Assembly: GCF_026151205.1 (NCBI RefSeq)
Contig: NC_087084.1
Span: 16,280,227 to 16,344,226, forward strand
Length of the DNA: 64,000 nucleotides
Direction of reading: 5' to 3'
Source of the DNA: Bolinopsis microptera
Lineage: Eukaryota; Ctenophora; Tentaculata; Lobata; Bolinopsidae
The translations under genes were made by a program, and so were the position numbers. Every line of letters begins with the position of its first letter. Position 1 is the first letter of the stretch. Positions 42,501-53,874 of this stretch are shown in pieces. The notes under the pieces were generated by a model, which saw nothing but the letters and a program-made list of their open reading frames with translations, did not search any database and had not been told where the DNA came from.

Positions 42501-44433
42501 GGTCAGCTCTTCTCCGAGGTCAAGATTAGTTTGAAATTCTTAGCATATCCATTAGAATAATTACCGGATGAATATGCAATTGTAAATTTTGAGATTAAAT
42601 AAAAAATTTCTGAGAATTCTTTGATTTATTTGAAACGCAAGGAAATATTTTTTAAACGCACTATATAGCCCCAAACTTGCTTACCAAATAGAGCGTTAAT
42701 GCTTTACTATCCCCAGCACATTGGACGATTCGCTACTTTTGAAGCGGTTTCGATCTTGTGTTGATACTTTTGAACTGACTTAGGGTCTGAAGCTTGCTTC
42801 TGCCAGGTTATATACAATCTTTGACAATGTACGATGGCAAACTTCGGATTTAAAGCGGGATAAGGATGTATAATGGAGGGGGTTATCTGGCGTAGATCTG
42901 ACTTAGTTTCGACATAGTAGTAGTAGTACTGGTAGTAGTAGTAGTTTGACATAGTAATTGACTAGACTACAATAATCTTAGGGAAAGTATACAACTCTAA
43001 AACCAAATTGTGAGTATTATTGAAATGCGGAAGCGAGCAAATCAAAAATACAATTTTAAAGTACTGTTTCACACTTGCACTGTACTCTAGATGATCTAGG
43101 ATGTGAAGCTTGCTTAAGCCTAGAACACACGAGTTCCCCTGATATAGTAGCAATGGCTAGATTCACTTCCTTCCCACTTACACTGTTGTTGAATGTTGAC
43201 TTGTAGCTACAATATTAAATTGATCGTGGAAATCGGTCTCGGATGTGAAACTAAAGGAGCCAACTTGAATCCATAAAATTTTGAATGCTAAATTTTAAAA
43301 TACCGCTCTATATTTACACCGTTCACCAGTTAATATGGCTGGGAGGATTGGGAGGATTCATAGATTGTCGATTGTTTAAGATTAACTTGATATTTTAGCG
43401 TATCAGAGCTGAAATTTTGCATGACTATTTCACATGACTATTTTACATGACTATTTTTTTCATATTCCGGGAAGTTGAGGAAGCAGGAATAGATAGCGCG
43501 CGTTTTCTGCGCGTTTTTTGGTGTCTGAATGCGCAAAAAATAGTCAAGCAATCTTATAGGTAAGAAATAGTCATGGAATCTAGGAATGCGCTCGATTCAA
43601 ACTTCGAGTCTATAAAGTAATGTAACATCGCGTGAGCCCTGAGAGCGATTATTTTAATTTAATTTTGAATTAATGTGAATATTTTTTGCACAAGAATCTT
43701 ATTTTACCGGTTATCAACAAATTTTGACTAGGTGTTAAATTCCTGGACGCCTGACTATTTGCCACTGGGCCCATAGCTCCTTGCTTTGGAATGAACAGAT
43801 CAATGAAACAAGAAATTCAATGAAACAAGAAATTTAATTTTAGCACATTTTACAGAATAAAAAGATGTAAAACAATTCATAAAATATAATGCCCATTTGG
43901 TGTATGACTTTTTGTCCTTGACTGCTAGTTTGGTTTTGGAAGGACAGGTAACTAACGGGGCAAGGAATGCGCGTGCCTGAAAGCTTTTGCACACACCGAA
44001 ACGCTAGTTCAGTTAGGTTTTTAGAGACAGGGCTCATTTTAGGACTAGAAGAAATTTGTTAGTAGACATTAGGGGTTCTGTTTATAGTTGTTACTATAGG
44101 TTGCAGTCTTGTTGTGACAAAAAGTCTACACTAAAACATGCTTTAGTTTATATTGTGTGGTTCAAGGATATAAAATGTGGCTTCAAGGTGGATATTAAAG
44201 AGCTTGCGAAAGATTATGGCCTTTGTATCAATAGTTATAATAAGCTATAAATATCTTAAACTATACAGTGCTAATTAAAAATTTCTTTATACTTCATTCT
44301 CAGATTAGATTTAAAAATTCAAAAAATATACATTTATTTTATTAATACCTTCTCACACATTCTTTACTCACAGGACAAGACTTGGAAAACAGTAGCCTAG
44401 AGGAATTTAATTGAGATGTGTGTGAACAGCCAG
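42501..44433. other. Spacer between LINE B and LINE C; includes a fragment shared with the foldback spacer
   Basis: No gene recognised. 42850-42950, read on the minus strand (CTAAGTCAGATCTACGCCAG and on), matches about 27265-27345 in the foldback spacer, including the ACT-trinucleotide run beside it. Short local duplications occur at about 43390-43450 (CATGACTATTT) and 43797-43835 (ATGAAACAAGAAATT). The LINE C 3' UTR occupies the right-hand part; its exact end is not obvious. Confidence 0.6.
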
Positions 44434-47400
44434 TTATAATGTTTGGAAAATAATATTTGTGCAGTCAAAATCTTTTACGGTCCAATCAAGCAGGGCGTGG
44501 TTATGCTGATTGGCTAATAGCGCACTTTTAAGTTTTCCTCGCAAGCACATTACACTAGTAGTAAAGTCAGTCATTCTGAACTTTGGGGTTAAAATGTTAA
44601 AAATTTTGGTTGACCTAGTGTTGTGGTTGTCAGGTGGGTCTACCTGACAGATAAGAAGGCAGGGTTTCCTCGACGAACATGTGTAACCCTCATATAGGGA
44701 TATTGGAGCACGGAATTTCATTATCTTGTAGAGCTCGAGGTAACTGTGGTATGTATAGAGATTTTGTATAGCTAGAATATTATTATGCTTGAATATCGGT
44801 TTGGTGTGTTCTTTTATGAAAAATTTTTGGTCAAGTTTCTGGTGTCCTATAGGCCTAGTACGTGCACAAGTCTTAAACTTATCAAGGTACGCCAGCCTAT
44901 CACCAAATAGTACTCTGAGACAGTACTTCTGAGCAGTAAATATTGAGCTTATACGTTGCTTAGCTGCCCCACCCCATACAGATATACAGTAGGAAAGATG
45001 TGATTCGAACAGAGTATAATATAATTGTTGATGTAGAAATTCTGGAAGGGAGCAGCGAAGTCTACATAAAGTGGATGTGGAATGATTTAGGGTTCGCTTA
45101 AGAGCTTTAATGTGATCTTCCCATGATAGGTTCTCGTCAATTATAACACCCAGAAATTTTGCGGATGAAACCTTTTTGATTGGATAGTTGTCTATAGTTA
45201 GTACAGGTTCAGGGTGTGATAAAATCTCTGACTTAGGACCTGCCATGTTGGGTTTGAAGTGTATGTAGCAGCACTTGGACATGTTTATATGTAACTTATT
45301 CGCTCTCATATAAGACTGTAATGATGACAAAAGCTCATTTCCTCGTTCATATGCCTCACGTTTTGTTTTGCCGACAACAAATATATTAGTATCATCAGCA
45401 AAGGTAACAAATGATCCTAGTTTAGAACTGTTTGTGATGTCGTTCATATAAAGAAGAAATAGGAGAGGTCCAAGAATTGAACCCTGTGGGACACCAAATT
45501 GAATAGATAGGGTATCTGATTTTTCTCCTACAACTTCAGTGTATTGTTGCCTGTTTGTTAAGTAGCTTTTTATGAGGTTATTTGCAACTCCTCTCACTCC
45601 ACATCCCTCTAATTTTATAAGAAGTGTTGAATGATCGATGGTGTCAAAAGCTTTGCTAAGGTCAATGAATATTCCTAAAACATGATTCTTAAGTTTAAGA
45701 GATTTCGTAATTAAATCTACAGAGTAATTGACTGCATGCGATGTAGAGTGAGATTTCCTAAATCCAAACTGTGTCTTCGATATAACTCCCTGGGAGCTAA
45801 CAAATCCGTATATTCTAGAATATATGAGCTTTTCAAAGATCTTACCGAAGACGGACAGTGTGGAGATAGGACGGTAGTTCTCGATTTCTTCTGGGTTACC
45901 TTTCTTATATACAGGTGTTATTTTACCAGTTTTCAGGACATCAGGAAATATACCTTGGGTCATAAGGATATTGAAGTAATTCGATAATACAGGTGCAATT
46001 ACATGAGATGACTTTTTTATTACACTTATGGGAATGTCACTGGCTTTACCATTTTCGAACTCTCTTATGATTTTCAATATTTCGTTCGAGGAGCAATCTT
46101 CTAACCTAATATTTTTTTCATTTCTTGGATTCAGGAAGTCATAGAAAGTTTTCATGGGTAATATAGGCAGGCCATTAGATAGATTATTCAGTGTCTCATT
46201 CAGCTTTGGTGCAATAGAGACAAACCAAGCATTGAATCCATTAGCAATTGCTCTTCTATCAACTATTCTTTGGTTATCAATGATAAATGGGGGCTTGGTT
46301 TGCCTCTTCTTTTTGCCTCTGAGTTCGTTAATAATTTGCCAGGTTTTCTTGCTGTTTTCACAGTTGTTTAGAATTTCGTTACAGTAATGCCAACGTTTGG
46401 CAGCTTTAATGATAGCTTTGAGCATCCTACGATAATCACTAAATACTTGGTATAGCAAGATATTACCACCAGGGTTCTTATTGGTAACGGTGTCAGACCA
46501 CTCCTTACGTAGCTCATGCTTTCTTTCTACAGACTGGATGATACTGTCTGTAATCCATGGGTTAAGTTTGGGAGTTCTTTTTGTCACTTTCGGTACCTCC
46601 AGTTTGCAGTGTTTGTCGAGTGTCTGGTCAAAACATGCCGTAAACTCATCAAATTTTGTTGAAGGAGTGAGCTGGTTTACCTTTACCTCAAGTTCAGTTA
46701 CAAAGCTTTTCAATTTGGAACTTGAGTAATCATAATAGCGGACATGTTTCTGAGGCTCTGTACTGCGAGGGGTCTCTACTGAAGTGAAGGTAAATATAGG
46801 GGCATGCTCACCAAGCCGTTCTTCAATAACACCTGATAAGACTATATTCTCAATTTTATTTGTTAAAATGTTATCGATGCAGGAACTTTTACAGTTTTGA
46901 CGAAAATGTGTTGCAATGGAGATAGTCGGGTAAAAGCCGTTTCTGTATAAAGTATCCTCAAAGAGCTGGGAACTGGTAGAAATATTAAGTATGTTTGAGT
47001 TAAAGTCTCCCAACAAATTGACAGTTTTCCCATTTAGCTGCTTTGCAAGTAGTTCCAGGGTTTCACAAAAGCTATCAAAGCAGCCATTAGGGGGTCGGTA
47101 AATGACTCCATGAACAATTTTGCTGCCTGCGCTATCTGTGGTTTCAACAAAGAGGCTCTCAATATTTGTAGTACAGTGTGATACGTTTTCTAAGACCACA
47201 GTATTTAAATGGTCAGATACATAGAGTGCAACACCTGTGCCTTTTTTCTTACCTGCCAATGTTTCTTGATAGAATCCTGTGTATGATGGAATTTGGTACA
47301 GGCCCTGCTGTGCAGGATCAGTATTGGTTTCAGCAAGACCAATCATATCAAACGAGTGCCCTATACTTTTGAGTTCAATTTGGAAGCTATCAAAGTTAGA

Positions 47401-47799
47401 TGCGTTTCCATCTATATTGTAGAATAAAGTTGATAACATAGATTTTTTTGAGGAATTGAGCTGCTTGATTGCATTTAAGAACTCGAGTTTAGAGTAGCGA
47501 CGGCAACGTTCAAGTACAAGGGCATATGATGCAATTAAGGCATCTTCCTGGTTTCTATTATCATAAAATCTATCAGAATCTATAGATTCCTCATCAGATG
47601 GAAATGGGCAGTACCGTTCCTCTGCAGAACTGGCACACTCGCAGCACATCCATAGTCCATTTTTGCATGAGTATTTAGCTGATTTGAAACACTTAGTATG
47701 GATGGCATTATTACAGTTTTCACACTCTAGTAAAGGTTGTCCGATGTTAATAGATCTACTACATGGCTCACACACATCTTTAATCATTTTCATAATCAT
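44434..47799 (-). CDS. LINE C ORF2: PHD-like finger, endonuclease, reverse transcriptase (1121 aa), intact
   Basis: N-terminal zinc finger, residues 10-55: CEPC, CENCNNAIHTKC, CKNGLWMCCEC (PHD-like). APE endonuclease ~120-340: LFYNIDGN, GLAETN, VIYRPPNG, LLGDFNSN, CIDNIL, GEHAPIF. RT ~560-830: ENYRPISTLSV, GIFIDLSKAFDTIDH (motif A), GVPQGSILGPLLFLLYMNDI (B), TFADDTNIF (C). A C-terminal region follows (HLSYCISVWGG). The ATG lies 5 nt after the ORF1 stop (TAG, TAAAA, ATG), an arrangement suggesting termination-reinitiation. No internal stop or frameshift; all catalytic residues present. Confidence 0.92.
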   Translation of the reverse strand: MIMKMIKDVCEPCSRSINIGQPLLECENCNNAIHTKCFKSAKYSCKNGLWMCCECASSAEERYCPFPSDEESIDSDRFYDNRNQEDALIASYALVLERCRRYSKLEFLNAIKQLNSSKKSMLSTLFYNIDGNASNFDSFQIELKSIGHSFDMIGLAETNTDPAQQGLYQIPSYTGFYQETLAGKKKGTGVALYVSDHLNTVVLENVSHCTTNIESLFVETTDSAGSKIVHGVIYRPPNGCFDSFCETLELLAKQLNGKTVNLLGDFNSNILNISTSSQLFEDTLYRNGFYPTISIATHFRQNCKSSCIDNILTNKIENIVLSGVIEERLGEHAPIFTFTSVETPRSTEPQKHVRYYDYSSSKLKSFVTELEVKVNQLTPSTKFDEFTACFDQTLDKHCKLEVPKVTKRTPKLNPWITDSIIQSVERKHELRKEWSDTVTNKNPGGNILLYQVFSDYRRMLKAIIKAAKRWHYCNEILNNCENSKKTWQIINELRGKKKRQTKPPFIIDNQRIVDRRAIANGFNAWFVSIAPKLNETLNNLSNGLPILPMKTFYDFLNPRNEKNIRLEDCSSNEILKIIREFENGKASDIPISVIKKSSHVIAPVLSNYFNILMTQGIFPDVLKTGKITPVYKKGNPEEIENYRPISTLSVFGKIFEKLIYSRIYGFVSSQGVISKTQFGFRKSHSTSHAVNYSVDLITKSLKLKNHVLGIFIDLSKAFDTIDHSTLLIKLEGCGVRGVANNLIKSYLTNRQQYTEVVGEKSDTLSIQFGVPQGSILGPLLFLLYMNDITNSSKLGSFVTFADDTNIFVVGKTKREAYERGNELLSSLQSYMRANKLHINMSKCCYIHFKPNMAGPKSEILSHPEPVLTIDNYPIKKVSSAKFLGVIIDENLSWEDHIKALKRTLNHSTSTLCRLRCSLPEFLHQQLYYTLFESHLSYCISVWGGAAKQRISSIFTAQKYCLRVLFGDRLAYLDKFKTCARTRPIGHQKLDQKFFIKEHTKPIFKHNNILAIQNLYTYHSYLELYKIMKFRAPISLYEGYTCSSRKPCLLICQVDPPDNHNTRSTKIFNILTPKFRMTDFTTSVMCLRGKLKSALLANQHNHALLDWTVKDFDCTNIIFQTL

Positions 47800-47804
47800 T
47801 TTTA

Positions 47805-49877
47805 CTAAGTGGGGTTGTTAGACCCCACTGACTGGTTGTGTTTTCCACGTCTTGTCCGCTCTTGCCTCTCTCTCACATACACCCAATGCTTCACACATCT
47901 CACAAATTTGGTAATACCATAAACTCCTAAATGAATATCATCACCACCTCTGGTCAGGTTGGTGGCAAGGAGTCCCCTACTATCTAAGAAGTGGCCAACT
48001 CCAAGGTGCCACACACTCTGGTTGAAGTTGGCACTTAACATTTCTCCAACAAGCCGATTGAAGGTCATAATGTTTTTGTTCATTTGAGGCAATCTTGATG
48101 GGAGGACTGCTGCGACGAATATTTTGATACTTGGGCAGAGCTTTCTTATCTGTTGAATCTTCAAGTGGAGAACGTCAACCAGCTGATGGATTTCATTCTC
48201 TCCTCTAAGGTTTTCTACCCGGAGGTCATTGGTACCACAAACGATAACAACGTTGCTGTACCCAATGCAGCGACAAGGGTCAATCAAACTGACTTTACCT
48301 GCCTTGACTCTTTCACCAGGGAAAGACTGGCCCATAGTACCAGCACCACACCCAAACTTGATTGTTTTGGTGTTCGAATCTCCCATAATGAGCGTGCTTC
48401 TTTTGAATTTGTTGTTAATGGCTCTAAGGGTAATGGAAAATCGTCCGTGTATGGCCGGGTTGACTTCAGTTTTTTGGGTGGCCTTGATTCCATGCTTGAA
48501 CCAAGCTTGTGAGGAACGAGTCATAATATAGGCCGAGTTGGATTCCAGGGACATTTCAGTCATTTTTGTAGGTGAATGGCCTTCATGGACAGGTACAAAG
48601 CTTATCTTTCTTACTTCTCCTATTGAAATTGTGGCTATTTCGGAGTCAGCAAGTATTTCTTGCTCATCGTCACAGTGGAAGGGTAACATGCTTTCCTCAA
48701 CCCCAGTGCTAGGAGGGAAGTAGTTTATGAGCACAGAGTTAGGCTTGTGTGTAAGTTTGCACTGGGAGGTGACTCTATCAATAGCAGCTGCTAATGGTGG
48801 TGGGATGGCTGGAGAGGAGGGGGCGTTTGTGTCTCCAGAGTATGTGTAGCTTTCTCCATATTTAAGGACTGACCTTCCGTTCATCTGGCTGAACTTACCA
48901 GCTTCTTTGCACTCAGTCAGAAAACTGGTGACCTCATCAAGCAGATTTTTGTCTAGGATGTCTACTTGGTAGTCCTTAATCGGCGGCATTACACATTTGG
49001 GGAGGGCTACTGTTGACCTCATCTCTTGTTTGACTGCTGCTGGAGGGCCCATTTGAGGGCTTCTGGATTTTTGGAAGGAGTAAATCTCTTCACTAAGTTG
49101 CGACAGTCTTGACTCAAGTGAAGATATCTCCACGGTGGGTATGCTGTTGGATACAGCACTCGAGATGGCATCAGATACAGCTTGGATGTTTTTGCTGTAG
49201 TCGACGCTAAACTTGAGAGCTTCATCCAATTTAGACGCGGTGCTGCTGTTTGGCTTGGGATGGATTGATGTGAAGCACCATGGACATTCCCAGTACTGAA
49301 GGATGGCATCAAGACCAATCTGTTGTGGGGAGCCACTTGTAATCTGGTTTGCTCCCTTGAGGTTGCTGCAGGAGGCGTGCCAATGCTGAGAGCATCTGCA
49401 ACATTTGAGAAGCCATTCTTTGCCCTCAGAGCTTGCTCGACAGGGGCAGTTACCTTTAATGGCACGTTGCTTTGGACTTCCTTGATCTTTTTCTTCTTCT
49501 TCTGTATGGAAGGGTGGGAACGGTTTGTAAATAGGGCTCATAGGGCTATGAGGACTATCTCTTAGGCCACCAGGGTCGATTATGAGGCTTGGACTAATTT
49601 TTAGGGTCAGAGATGTAGGTGGCTGTAATGTTGATGGTCCCGGTGAAGCAACAGTAAGCAGCTTTTCAGTTGGCAGACTGTTTGATCTTCGCCGTCCTGA
49701 GATGTTGGCTGCAGGGTTCTTCTGATTAGCCTTGCTTGTGAGGGGGCTCTTTCTGTGAAGAGGATTAGTCACTTTAGGGGAATGAGGTGGAGTAGCCTTA
49801 GCCTTAACAGATGCTGCAGGAGAGTTGTTTCTGGGCGAGCGTCTGTTTTGTGGTGGTGGTGTTGGAATTCTCTTCAT
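47805..49877 (-). CDS. LINE C ORF1: PHD-like finger + AlkB-type dioxygenase + SGNH hydrolase (690 aa)
   Basis: The start is the ATG at 49877; the frame is open 23 codons further to a GTG only. Residues 1-140 are Pro/Ser/basic-rich and probably disordered. PHD-like finger, ~144-201: CPC, CCRCSQHWHASC, WECPWC. Helical segment ~225-270. AlkB fold, ~335-490: YGESYTYSG, NSVLINYFPP, iron ligands in LPFHCDDE (H401, D403) and WFKHGI (H462), and the 2-oxoglutarate signature RFSITLR (R479, R485), i.e. H-x-D...H...R-x-S-x-T-x-R complete. SGNH hydrolase, ~497-660: MGDSN (S501), VVIVCGTNDLR (N550), DDIHLG (D646, H649). AlkB enzymes oxidatively demethylate nucleic acids; SGNH domains are esterases. Inference: an RNA/DNA-binding ORF1 protein that repairs or edits methyl marks on the element's RNA or cDNA. 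Domain calls are strong, the role is speculative. Confidence 0.9.
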   Translation of the reverse strand: MKRIPTPPPQNRRSPRNNSPAASVKAKATPPHSPKVTNPLHRKSPLTSKANQKNPAANISGRRRSNSLPTEKLLTVASPGPSTLQPPTSLTLKISPSLIIDPGGLRDSPHSPMSPIYKPFPPFHTEEEEKDQGSPKQRAIKGNCPCRASSEGKEWLLKCCRCSQHWHASCSNLKGANQITSGSPQQIGLDAILQYWECPWCFTSIHPKPNSSTASKLDEALKFSVDYSKNIQAVSDAISSAVSNSIPTVEISSLESRLSQLSEEIYSFQKSRSPQMGPPAAVKQEMRSTVALPKCVMPPIKDYQVDILDKNLLDEVTSFLTECKEAGKFSQMNGRSVLKYGESYTYSGDTNAPSSPAIPPPLAAAIDRVTSQCKLTHKPNSVLINYFPPSTGVEESMLPFHCDDEQEILADSEIATISIGEVRKISFVPVHEGHSPTKMTEMSLESNSAYIMTRSSQAWFKHGIKATQKTEVNPAIHGRFSITLRAINNKFKRSTLIMGDSNTKTIKFGCGAGTMGQSFPGERVKAGKVSLIDPCRCIGYSNVVIVCGTNDLRVENLRGENEIHQLVDVLHLKIQQIRKLCPSIKIFVAAVLPSRLPQMNKNIMTFNRLVGEMLSANFNQSVWHLGVGHFLDSRGLLATNLTRGGDDIHLGVYGITKFVRCVKHWVYVRERQERTRRGKHNQSVGSNNPT

Positions 49878-49944
49878 GACTGTGGATTGATCACGGGGAT
49901 GTGCTGAGTGCCCTCTGGGCTGCCACCACCGGCGAATTAGCTGC

Positions 49945-49980
49945 ACCTCAAATTATTTGTTATATAGTAGTGTTGAAAGT
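49945..49980 (-). repeat. 36-nt LINE 5' end shared by A and C (copy in C)
   Basis: Minus-strand copy of the motif at 34894-34929, first 36 nt of LINE C. In LINE C it is followed by 67 nt of different 5' UTR before the ORF1 ATG. Confidence 0.9.
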
Positions 49981-50895
49981 ATTAAAACATAAAAGCATGT
50001 ATTTCTAAAGCAAATCGTATGATCTGCTGGATTGTAAGGAACTTAGTTATTAGAGAAAAGGTTGTAATGATAGCTATTTATAAAGCTTTGATAAGACCTC
50101 ATCTTGAGTATTGTGTCCAATTGTGGAATCCAGTTGCGGCTCATGGAAGTTGGGGGACTGTTTTGGAGCTGGAGAGCGTCCAGAGGCGGTTTACCCGTCT
50201 TATTGATGAGGTGGGTACTCTTCCATACAGCTGCAGACTGGATATCCTCAATTTGACAACGCTGGCAGAGCGGCGAATACGTGGGGACCTTATCGAAGCT
50301 TTTAAAGTAACTAGTGGTTTGACTGAATATGGATCGGGTTTGTTCAGAATGAGCAGATCTGGTCTTAATCTAGTTTCAACCAATAGGTGTAATAAGAGTG
50401 TAACTAAAGTTAAGAATCTCCAGTCTTCTTTTCTTCCAGAGCGAGTCATTCCTTACTGGAACAAACTCCCTTCAGATGTCAAGAACTGCTCGACAGTTTT
50501 AAGCTTTAAAGTTAGATTGGAAGGATTTAAGAAAGAAATGATTTCTAAAAACAGTGTAAATGATTTTTATTTTTGGAATGTTTCGAATGAAGTTTTAGGG
50601 AAAATTGAAGGACCCAGTTATTTAAGCAATAAGGAGACACATAATGAATATCTTTGGTTTCATCCTTTTGTGACAAAGAAGTGTTTCATAAATCTTTATT
50701 CCACTGGGAAGTATTAATGAATTATTTATAGATAATGTATTAGATTTTATTAATTAATAAAATTGAATTTGATAAATTATTAATGTTGATGGAAAAATAT
50801 ATTTATTTAAATTATTTTTTTATTTAGTGCAATGATATTTTGTAGACACTTGTGATGATGTTATGTCATAATCTTTACTTACTTACTTACTTACT
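49981..50895 (+). mobile_element. LINE A, 3' portion (RT C-terminus and (TTAC)n tail)
   Basis: From about 49986 to the stop at 50717 the frame reads NIKACISKANRMICWI, YKALIRPHLEYCVQLWNP, RRFTRLIDEVGTLPYSCRL, LPERVIPYWNKLP, the usual tail of CR1/jockey-like ORF2 just downstream of the EKDLGV motif at which LINE A stops at about 38196. A short AT-rich UTR ends in TTAC repeats (50874-50895). Only a few codons are missing between the halves. Confidence 0.8.
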
Positions 50896-53022: not shown

Positions 53023-53874
53023 TTGTGCAACCATGTAAACTGCAAAATACGCCAGGAGCTCGAGTCAACACCACTGGCAAAGTTGATGTTCCAACTAGCG
53101 GCTGAGAAAGGGGCAAGTGCTTGGTTAACAGCACTACCTTTAAAAGAGTATGGATATCTGATGAATAAACAACAGTTCTCAGATGCAATAGCTCTCAGAT
53201 ACAACCTGAACTTGAAGGACTGCCCTAAAACATGTACGTGTGGCCAGAAATACTCAGCAAACCATGCGCTCATCTGCAAACTTGGTGGATATGTGTCACT
53301 GCGCCACAACTCGCTGAGAGACACCTTTGCAGAACTAATGAGAACTGTGAAATGCAAGGATGTGCAGACTGAGCCAGTTCTTCTTCCAGTTGATGGTCTA
53401 GAGTTACCAAGGGGAACAGTCCTAGGAGACCAAGCCAGGCTGGACATTTCTGCAAGATCGATTTGGAATGCTTCAGAGAGGGCATTTTTTGATATAAGGG
53501 TATTTCATGCCCCAGCCCCCTCCAATGCATGCAAACCGATACCAGCAATGTACCTGTCCCATGAAAATGAGAAAAAGCGATGTTACAATGCAAGGGTTCT
53601 TGAAGTGGAGAAAGGAAGCTTCACACCTTTAGTGTTCTCGACTTCTGGTGGAATGGGTGGTGAAGCTGAGAGACTGGTCAAGAAGCTGGCCAGTAAGATG
53701 GAGTACCACACTGGCCAGAGATACTCAGACGCCGTAGGATACATAAGAAAGCGCCTTCGCTTTGAAATTCTCAGAACAACAGTGATTTCTCTCCGTGGAG
53801 ACAGAGGTGCGAGAAAAAACATTGTTGATATAAACAGTCTAGATCTTAACTTGGAGCCACAAGGCCAAGGGTAA
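53023..53874 (+). pseudogene. Retrotransposon C-terminal nuclease-like fragment (284 codons)
   Basis: The frame opens without a natural start and ends at TAA 53874. Order: SAWLTALPLKEYGY, ALRYNLNLKDCP, finger-like CTCGQKYSANHALICKLGG followed by LRHNSLRD, then EPVLLP, DQARLDISARSIW and RAFFDIRVFHAPAPSN, EKKRCYN, FTPLVFSTSGGMGGEAE. The C-x-C...H...C plus RHN, then D-x(n)-(F)FDIRVF layout resembles the zinc-finger/restriction-like endonuclease tail of R2/R4-type LINEs. The same unit is common as an orphan fragment in marine invertebrate genomes. The preceding RT is absent. Family assignment is tentative. Confidence 0.55.

Follow-up and report, generated by a model that had tools for sequence, protein, structure and literature searches.

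A comb jelly LINE with a PHD finger, an AlkB dioxygenase and an SGNH hydrolase in ORF1, and recurrence of the AlkB-SGNH pair in other mobile elements of the same genome

The stretch analysed here (the window) comprises 64,000 nucleotides of the genome of the comb jelly Bolinopsis microptera (contig NC_087084.1, positions 16,280,227 to 16,344,226), and holds an intact, recently amplified non-LTR (long terminal repeat) retrotransposon, a long interspersed nuclear element (LINE), whose first open reading frame (ORF1) encodes a PHD finger, a probable coiled coil, an AlkB-type dioxygenase and an SGNH hydrolase. Distant relatives keep the catalytic residues of the two enzymes, purifying selection acts on both enzyme domains, and AlkB and SGNH are found paired again in other families of the same genome that bear a reverse transcriptase, and in a Helitron. 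The analysis was computational; all coordinates are window positions, and the element lies on the minus strand.

An initial annotation, made from the sequence alone, had read ORF1 (47805..49877; 690 aa) as the ORF1 of a LINE with PHD, AlkB and SGNH domains, and Pfam, a predicted structural model and conserved residues agree with it. The PHD finger takes up aa 140-205 (49263..49460; C144, C146, C159, C162, H167, C170, C198 and C201) and is followed in the predicted model by long helices, probably a coiled coil, at aa 213-271 (49065..49241). The AlkB domain spans aa 295-492 (48402..48995), with H401, D403 and H462, R479 and R485, N380 and N385, and Y346; the SGNH hydrolase domain spans aa 493-680 (47838..48401), with GDS at 499-501, GTN at 548-550 and D646-x-x-H649. 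The Pfam match to 2OG-FeII_Oxy_2 (E 3e-17) is far over its cut-off, and those to PHD (PHD_4, E 0.005) and GDSL are below theirs. NCBIfam gave no match in P0001 or P0028, and two sub-cut-off matches in P0053.

The predicted structure of the AlkB domain contains the double-stranded beta-helix of the family, and the domain carries the H-x-D...H triad, the R-x-S-x-T-x-R motif and the full set of iron and 2-oxoglutarate (2OG) residues, as the annotation had proposed from the signature. An alignment of up to 58 rows, distant relatives included, gives no sign of neutral drift at these sites: H401, D403, H462 and R479 are kept in 58/58 rows, R485 in 57/58 and N385 in 57/57, the Y346 site is Tyr in 56/58, and E405 is invariant. 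We take Y346 to be the base-stacking aromatic, and the glutamate of H-x-D-[DN]-E to be the base contact, as in AlkB/ALKBH2; judged by sequence, the pocket is of the ALKBH2/3 type and has its residues intact. The SGNH domain has its Ser (block I), Gly, Asn (block III) and DxxH (block V) blocks, and its catalytic residues are equally well kept (S501 and N550 in 58/58, D646 and H649 in 56/57), as are the C4HC3 zinc ligands of the PHD finger (41-44 of the 42-44 covering rows).

A search of the organism's own genome (264.65 Mb, 232 contigs; 64 ORF1 matches scored of 1,307 candidates) found at least five full copies of ORF1 at 99-100% identity, the window's included, together with a subfamily at 83-86%, a family at ~60% and another at 43%; a relative in Mnemiopsis leidyi (P0028) has 42% identity. 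Because five full copies stand at 99-100% and 50 of the 64 scored matches, many of them partial, are free of stops, the element has been active recently. Ratios of non-synonymous to synonymous substitution (dN/dS, or omega; Nei-Gojobori method) were taken for the window family (A) against the 83-86% subfamily (A'), in comparisons that share copies and are not all independent, with L022 excluded for its stop. For AlkB, five A versus A' comparisons gave an omega of 0.10-0.11 and two between A' copies gave 0.15, which indicates purifying selection; omega was 0.11-0.15 for SGNH, 0.06-0.16 for PHD (0.34 for the partly covered L018), and 0.37-0.47 for the ORF1 N-terminus where fully covered (0.12 over 21 codons of L017). 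Comparisons with the 60% and 43% families were saturated. Near-identical copies differ by few changes, and those in AlkB are not mainly synonymous (one synonymous and three non-synonymous for L009 versus L011, one and two for L024 versus L026, none and one for L024 versus L025).

These data bear on the suggestion that the AlkB fold is catalytically dead and does no more for ORF1p than bind nucleic acid. RNA binding is the role generally ascribed to ORF1 proteins, and Pfam finds neither an RRM nor a CCHC knuckle in this one; yet pure binding would have no need of iron and 2OG residues that vary hardly or not at all across 58 rows, and the omega of AlkB is as low as that of SGNH. We consider an AlkB with a purely binding role very improbable.

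Among sequences, the AlkB domain appears nearest to ALKBH2 and ALKBH3. In the PDB profile search it matches ALKBH2 (1.5e-13) and ALKBH3 (4e-10) best, and the list also has ALKBH8 (6e-9) and a solved DNA N6-methyladenine (6mA) demethylase (1.2e-4); ALKBH5 is absent from the list of 24 PDB sequences that the profile search returned at E<=0.01, a statement about that list only. The initial annotation had placed the domain closer to a viral AlkB subgroup by its H-x-D-D-E form, and this is not supported: the motif is also present in human ALKBH2 (HRDDE), human ALKBH3 (HSDDE) and the host's ALKBH2-like gene (HKDDE), and the best profile matches are cellular. Fold does not decide between viral and cellular kinship, because the best viral protein in Foldseek (3.9e-13) scores as well as ALKBH2 (2.5e-13); FTO is also among the fold matches. 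The AlkBs of plant RNA viruses and giant viruses, compared here by fold alone, share the fold, and we know of none with an SGNH partner. As to a possible viral origin, a pattern scan of viral_contigs gave 92 pattern matches and no confirmed relative. Cellular ALKBH2 and ALKBH3 differ from the window AlkB in being unfused, and show 20-26% identity to it in alignments.

The initial annotation did not pick up that this genome has many AlkB-SGNH families, one of them a Helitron. A genome search with PF13532 gave at least 151 matches (150 of 587 candidates scored), and 150 of 424 candidates were scored in a genome-wide SGNH search. Three AlkB matches look cellular, namely L035 (human ALKBH2, E 4e-60), L036 and L037 (human ALKBH3, 2.5e-39 and 1.6e-27), and Pfam finds no SGNH in their frames; the host has one ALKBH2-like and two ALKBH3-like genes. 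We read 15 repeat frames outside the window's subfamilies, from about six groups and therefore not independent, and 13 of them have AlkB and an SGNH-like domain. The arrangements are AlkB-SGNH preceded by a probable coiled coil (L041, L068, L070), PHD-AlkB-SGNH (L071, L072), AlkB-coiled coil-SGNH-like (L069, L054, L062), SGNH-AlkB-Helitron (L039, L056), and AlkB with SGNH in short frames of 478, 521 and 485 aa (L074, L075, L076). Two frames lack SGNH: in L059 the frame stops some twelve residues past the last block of AlkB, and L063 starts after the SGNH, which sits upstream in another frame.

The SGNH assignments differ in strength among these groups. Pfam matches are over the cut-off in L074-L076, below it (E 3e-6 to 8e-3) in L056, L041, L070, L072, L068, L069 and L054, and absent at 0.05 in L062 and at 0.1 in L071. 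With a clean SGNH profile (57 of 59 rows through the filter), hhalign gave 4e-14 for L041/L068/L070, 1.3e-7 for the Helitron, 1e-5 for L069 and 6e-4 for L054/L062, against 0.14 and 0.24 for AlkB segments used as controls and 0.005-0.097 for the best of 20 shuffles each. The SGNH of L054 and L062 (group 4) is weak, its 6e-4 standing against a best shuffle of 0.005, with a Pfam value of 0.008 in L054. L074-L076, which are not among the PF13532 matches, had been candidates for SGNH-only ORF1s; this was ruled out for these three, the SGNH frames read, since AlkB is found in each, though SGNH-only elements may exist among the rest: hhalign with a 55-row AlkB profile gave 8e-14 to 1e-10 (best of 20 shuffles, 0.032-0.075), and Pfam AlkB is over the cut-off only in L076, below it in L074 (PF03171, 0.002) and absent in L075. 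These three families have R-x-S-x-S-x-R in place of R-x-S-x-T-x-R.

The SGNH search itself brought up frames that are over the cut-off beside an AlkB match, some of 676 aa and others, of Helitron type, of 3,226 and 3,321 aa. Sixteen AlkB matches were selected with an eye to a partner; for 12 of them an SGNH match lies on the same strand no more than 2.5 kb away, and the other four are the three cellular genes and L056. A downstream frame on the same strand matches RVT_1 in both L041 (3e-39) and L054 (8e-29). A search with L041 (68 of 809 candidates scored) found at least nine near full-length copies at 99-100% and, at 58-60%, at least 14 near full-length frames, all free of stops. The Helitron frame (L056; 3,388 aa) has SGNH and AlkB toward its N-terminus, then DUF6570, Helitron_like_N (3e-22) and PIF1 (7e-22); these domain matches, with Helitron_like_N and a PIF1-type helicase in one frame, mark L056/L066 as a Helitron. 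In order, L056 together with L066 (G000:C10, ~16874.4-16884.5 kb) reads SGNH, proline/alanine-rich repeats, AlkB, repeats, DUF6570, Helitron_like_N and PIF1 helicase.

We favour, with moderate confidence, a reading in which the AlkB of ORF1p strips methyls of the N1-methyladenine/N3-methylcytosine (m1A/m3C) type from single-stranded nucleic acid of the element, SGNH acts as a lipid or membrane esterase, and the PHD finger docks to histones. ALKBH2 and ALKBH3 remove m1A and m3C from DNA or RNA, and such groups stall polymerases. ORF1p would pack the element RNA in a ribonucleoprotein particle, where AlkB would oxidatively remove these methyls from the RNA template and the first strand of complementary DNA (cDNA) of a LINE, or from the single-stranded rolling-circle intermediate of a Helitron. 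The methyl groups may be damage or host marks; their removal would favour full-length copying because they lie on the Watson-Crick face, where they make polymerases stall. Within the same particle SGNH may be a lipid- or membrane-binding esterase, by analogy with ZfL2-1 ORF1p, whose SGNH is reported to bind lipids and hydrolyse esters (PMC3905857), and histone tails would be the docking site of the PHD finger. A substrate common to the Helitron and the LINEs could only be single-stranded DNA or Helitron mRNA, and the single-stranded stages of both cycles are a possible shared substrate. Elements with the AlkB-esterase pair may thus clean or unmark their own nucleic acid.

AlkB could instead be a counter-defence eraser of host marks, N6-methyladenine on RNA (m6A) or 6mA and other methyls on DNA, brought to chromatin by the PHD finger. 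The conserved PHD finger accords with this, as do the 6mA demethylase among the profile matches and FTO among the fold matches; the presence of AlkB in different element types would fit a common host pressure, and the AlkB of an orchid Gypsy transposon is reported to demethylate m6A RNA in vitro (PMC9289625). Yet ALKBH2 and ALKBH3 are far better matches, by sequence and by fold, than the 6mA demethylase and FTO, and the term 6mA is absent, by word search, from one Mnemiopsis chromatin paper (PMC12221973; ctenophore adenine methylation was not the target of a dedicated search). The conserved H-x-D-[DN]-E is a motif of the m1A/m3C type. On balance we think an eraser of this kind unlikely. A further proposal is that AlkB and SGNH jointly act on protein or lipid, or that AlkB works in trans on RNA of the host and so changes the host's state. 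The two enzymes are kept together across different elements, and ALKBH8, a tRNA-modifying enzyme, is among the profile matches; the nearest folds and sequences, however, are the nucleic-acid demethylases ALKBH2/3, and we give this proposal only a slim chance.

An esterase domain in CR1-like LINEs was reportedly described by Kapitonov and Jurka in 2003. CR1/L2-like LINEs share with the window element two ORFs, endonuclease and reverse transcriptase in ORF2, PHD in ORF1 or at the start of ORF2, and an SGNH esterase in ORF1; esterase and PHD are each already known, and the difference is AlkB, which lies between the coiled coil and SGNH. In their Table 1, which covers subgroups of 448 elements, Metcalfe and Casane (2014; PMC4120745) give PHD, RRM, CCHC, Tnp22, zinc-finger and esterase ORF1 domains, with no AlkB and no subgroup in which PHD and esterase stand together, and a word search of the main text finds neither AlkB nor dioxygenase. 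The Phalaenopsis Ty3/Gypsy element resembles the window LINE in being a transposable element with an AlkB-type domain, but is a plant LTR element with AlkB in a separate ORF2, closest to RNA demethylases of the ALKBH5-like kind according to its authors (PMC9289625); the ctenophore elements are LINEs and a Helitron, with AlkB nearest ALKBH2/3 and fused to SGNH. The same paper cites viral AlkBs as presumed protection of the virus's own nucleic acid. Fish Helitrons captured texim SGNH genes related to CR1 esterases (PMC4021074), and so also place SGNH on a Helitron; their abstract has no AlkB, whereas L056 has SGNH and AlkB N-terminal in one Rep-helicase frame. The open literature covered yielded one transposon-borne AlkB, that of the orchid Gypsy, and no LINE or Helitron that carries one; that scope leaves aside Repbase and most subscription papers, where an entry may exist. 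One Mnemiopsis genome paper does not mention AlkB, by word search (PMC11797021).

In an AlkB tree of 40 rows, six of them cellular and viral sequences left out, the AlkBs of PHD-type LINEs and of Helitrons form one group (99/94), which the L041-like and L069 rows join next (94/94). Support is weak (76/69) for the branch that splits the mobile rows from the six cellular rows, with the host's own ALKBH2/3-like genes on the cellular side, and branches are long for the Helitron, group 4 and L069. One capture followed by exchange, or several captures, are both possible. Exchange between elements is plausible because the window and L007 are near-identical in ORF2 while ORF1 residues diverge: over 46305-49877, identity is 96.5-98% in the first 1.5 kb of ORF2 and only 77.5-84.3% in ORF1 residues 267-600, pointing to the window element as a mosaic formed by block exchange between subfamilies. 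L006 shows a like contrast with the window (~96.5-98% against 77-85%), and in L016 it is weaker.

The whole copy (43800..49986; ~6.2 kb) has ends common to near-identical copies, the 3' end at 43800 being shared with L029-L032 and the 5' end at ~49986 with L004 and L005. ORF1 and ORF2 (44434..47799; 1,121 aa) join as TAG-TAAAA-ATG. ORF2 begins with a second PHD/C1-like zinc finger (47632..47775; Pfam C1_1 E 7e-4, PHD E 0.05, both sub-cut-off), followed by an APE-type endonuclease (46855..47421; Exo_endo_phos E 8e-5, 22.9 bits against a cut-off of 24.5; matches in L033 and L034 are also sub-cut-off) and a reverse transcriptase (45139..45906; RVT_1 E 7e-37). The 3' tail (43800..43836) consists of a 16-17-base unit (AATTTCTTGTTTCATTG-like) in two copies; no match was found for a guessed 20-base pattern of the tail. 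A non-LTR-type reverse transcriptase in ORF2, the endonuclease upstream of it, the two-ORF layout, dispersed copies, a common 3' end and a short tandem tail are all features of LINEs, and from the domains we infer an APE-type LINE that is CR1/L2-like.

The 5' untranslated region (5'UTR; 49878..49986) is of the form without a ~820-bp segment that is present in five other copies (L002, L004, L005, L007, L016). Its absence leaves an identical junction, near 49946-49953, in the window, L003 and L006, which belong to two subfamilies; the segment resembles a spliced intron, but its ends would be GA-AG (TTTGAG|GATGTAG...TTTCAG|GTGCAG). At the end of L030 (G000:C6, ~19135.9 kb) an opposite-strand copy of the 60% family abuts the 3' end of a window-family copy, as if one had inserted at the other. 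Elsewhere in the window, open frames at 50019-50717 and 53023-53874, both on the plus strand, resemble by eye the C-terminal parts of other reverse transcriptases.

LINEs rank among the commonest transposons of animals, and of their two proteins that of ORF1 is the less well understood; a LINE with a conserved predicted nucleic-acid demethylase makes limits that methylation or alkylation of element RNA or cDNA may set on retrotransposition directly testable. For annotation, counts of AlkB genes in such genomes can be mostly transposon rather than repair genes. The occurrence of one AlkB-SGNH pair in elements as unlike as LINEs and Helitrons suggests a shared host pressure, in a lineage regarded as the sister group of the remaining animals. 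We put forward tentatively, as a possibility somewhat short of an even chance, that the comb jelly cassette is a general accessory of the mobilome, moved among several LINE families and a Helitron and present at well over a hundred loci in one genome, and that it would be a portable anti-silencing or self-repair system, of a kind not described before, with which mobile elements of both classes rid their single-stranded intermediates of methyl marks or damage.
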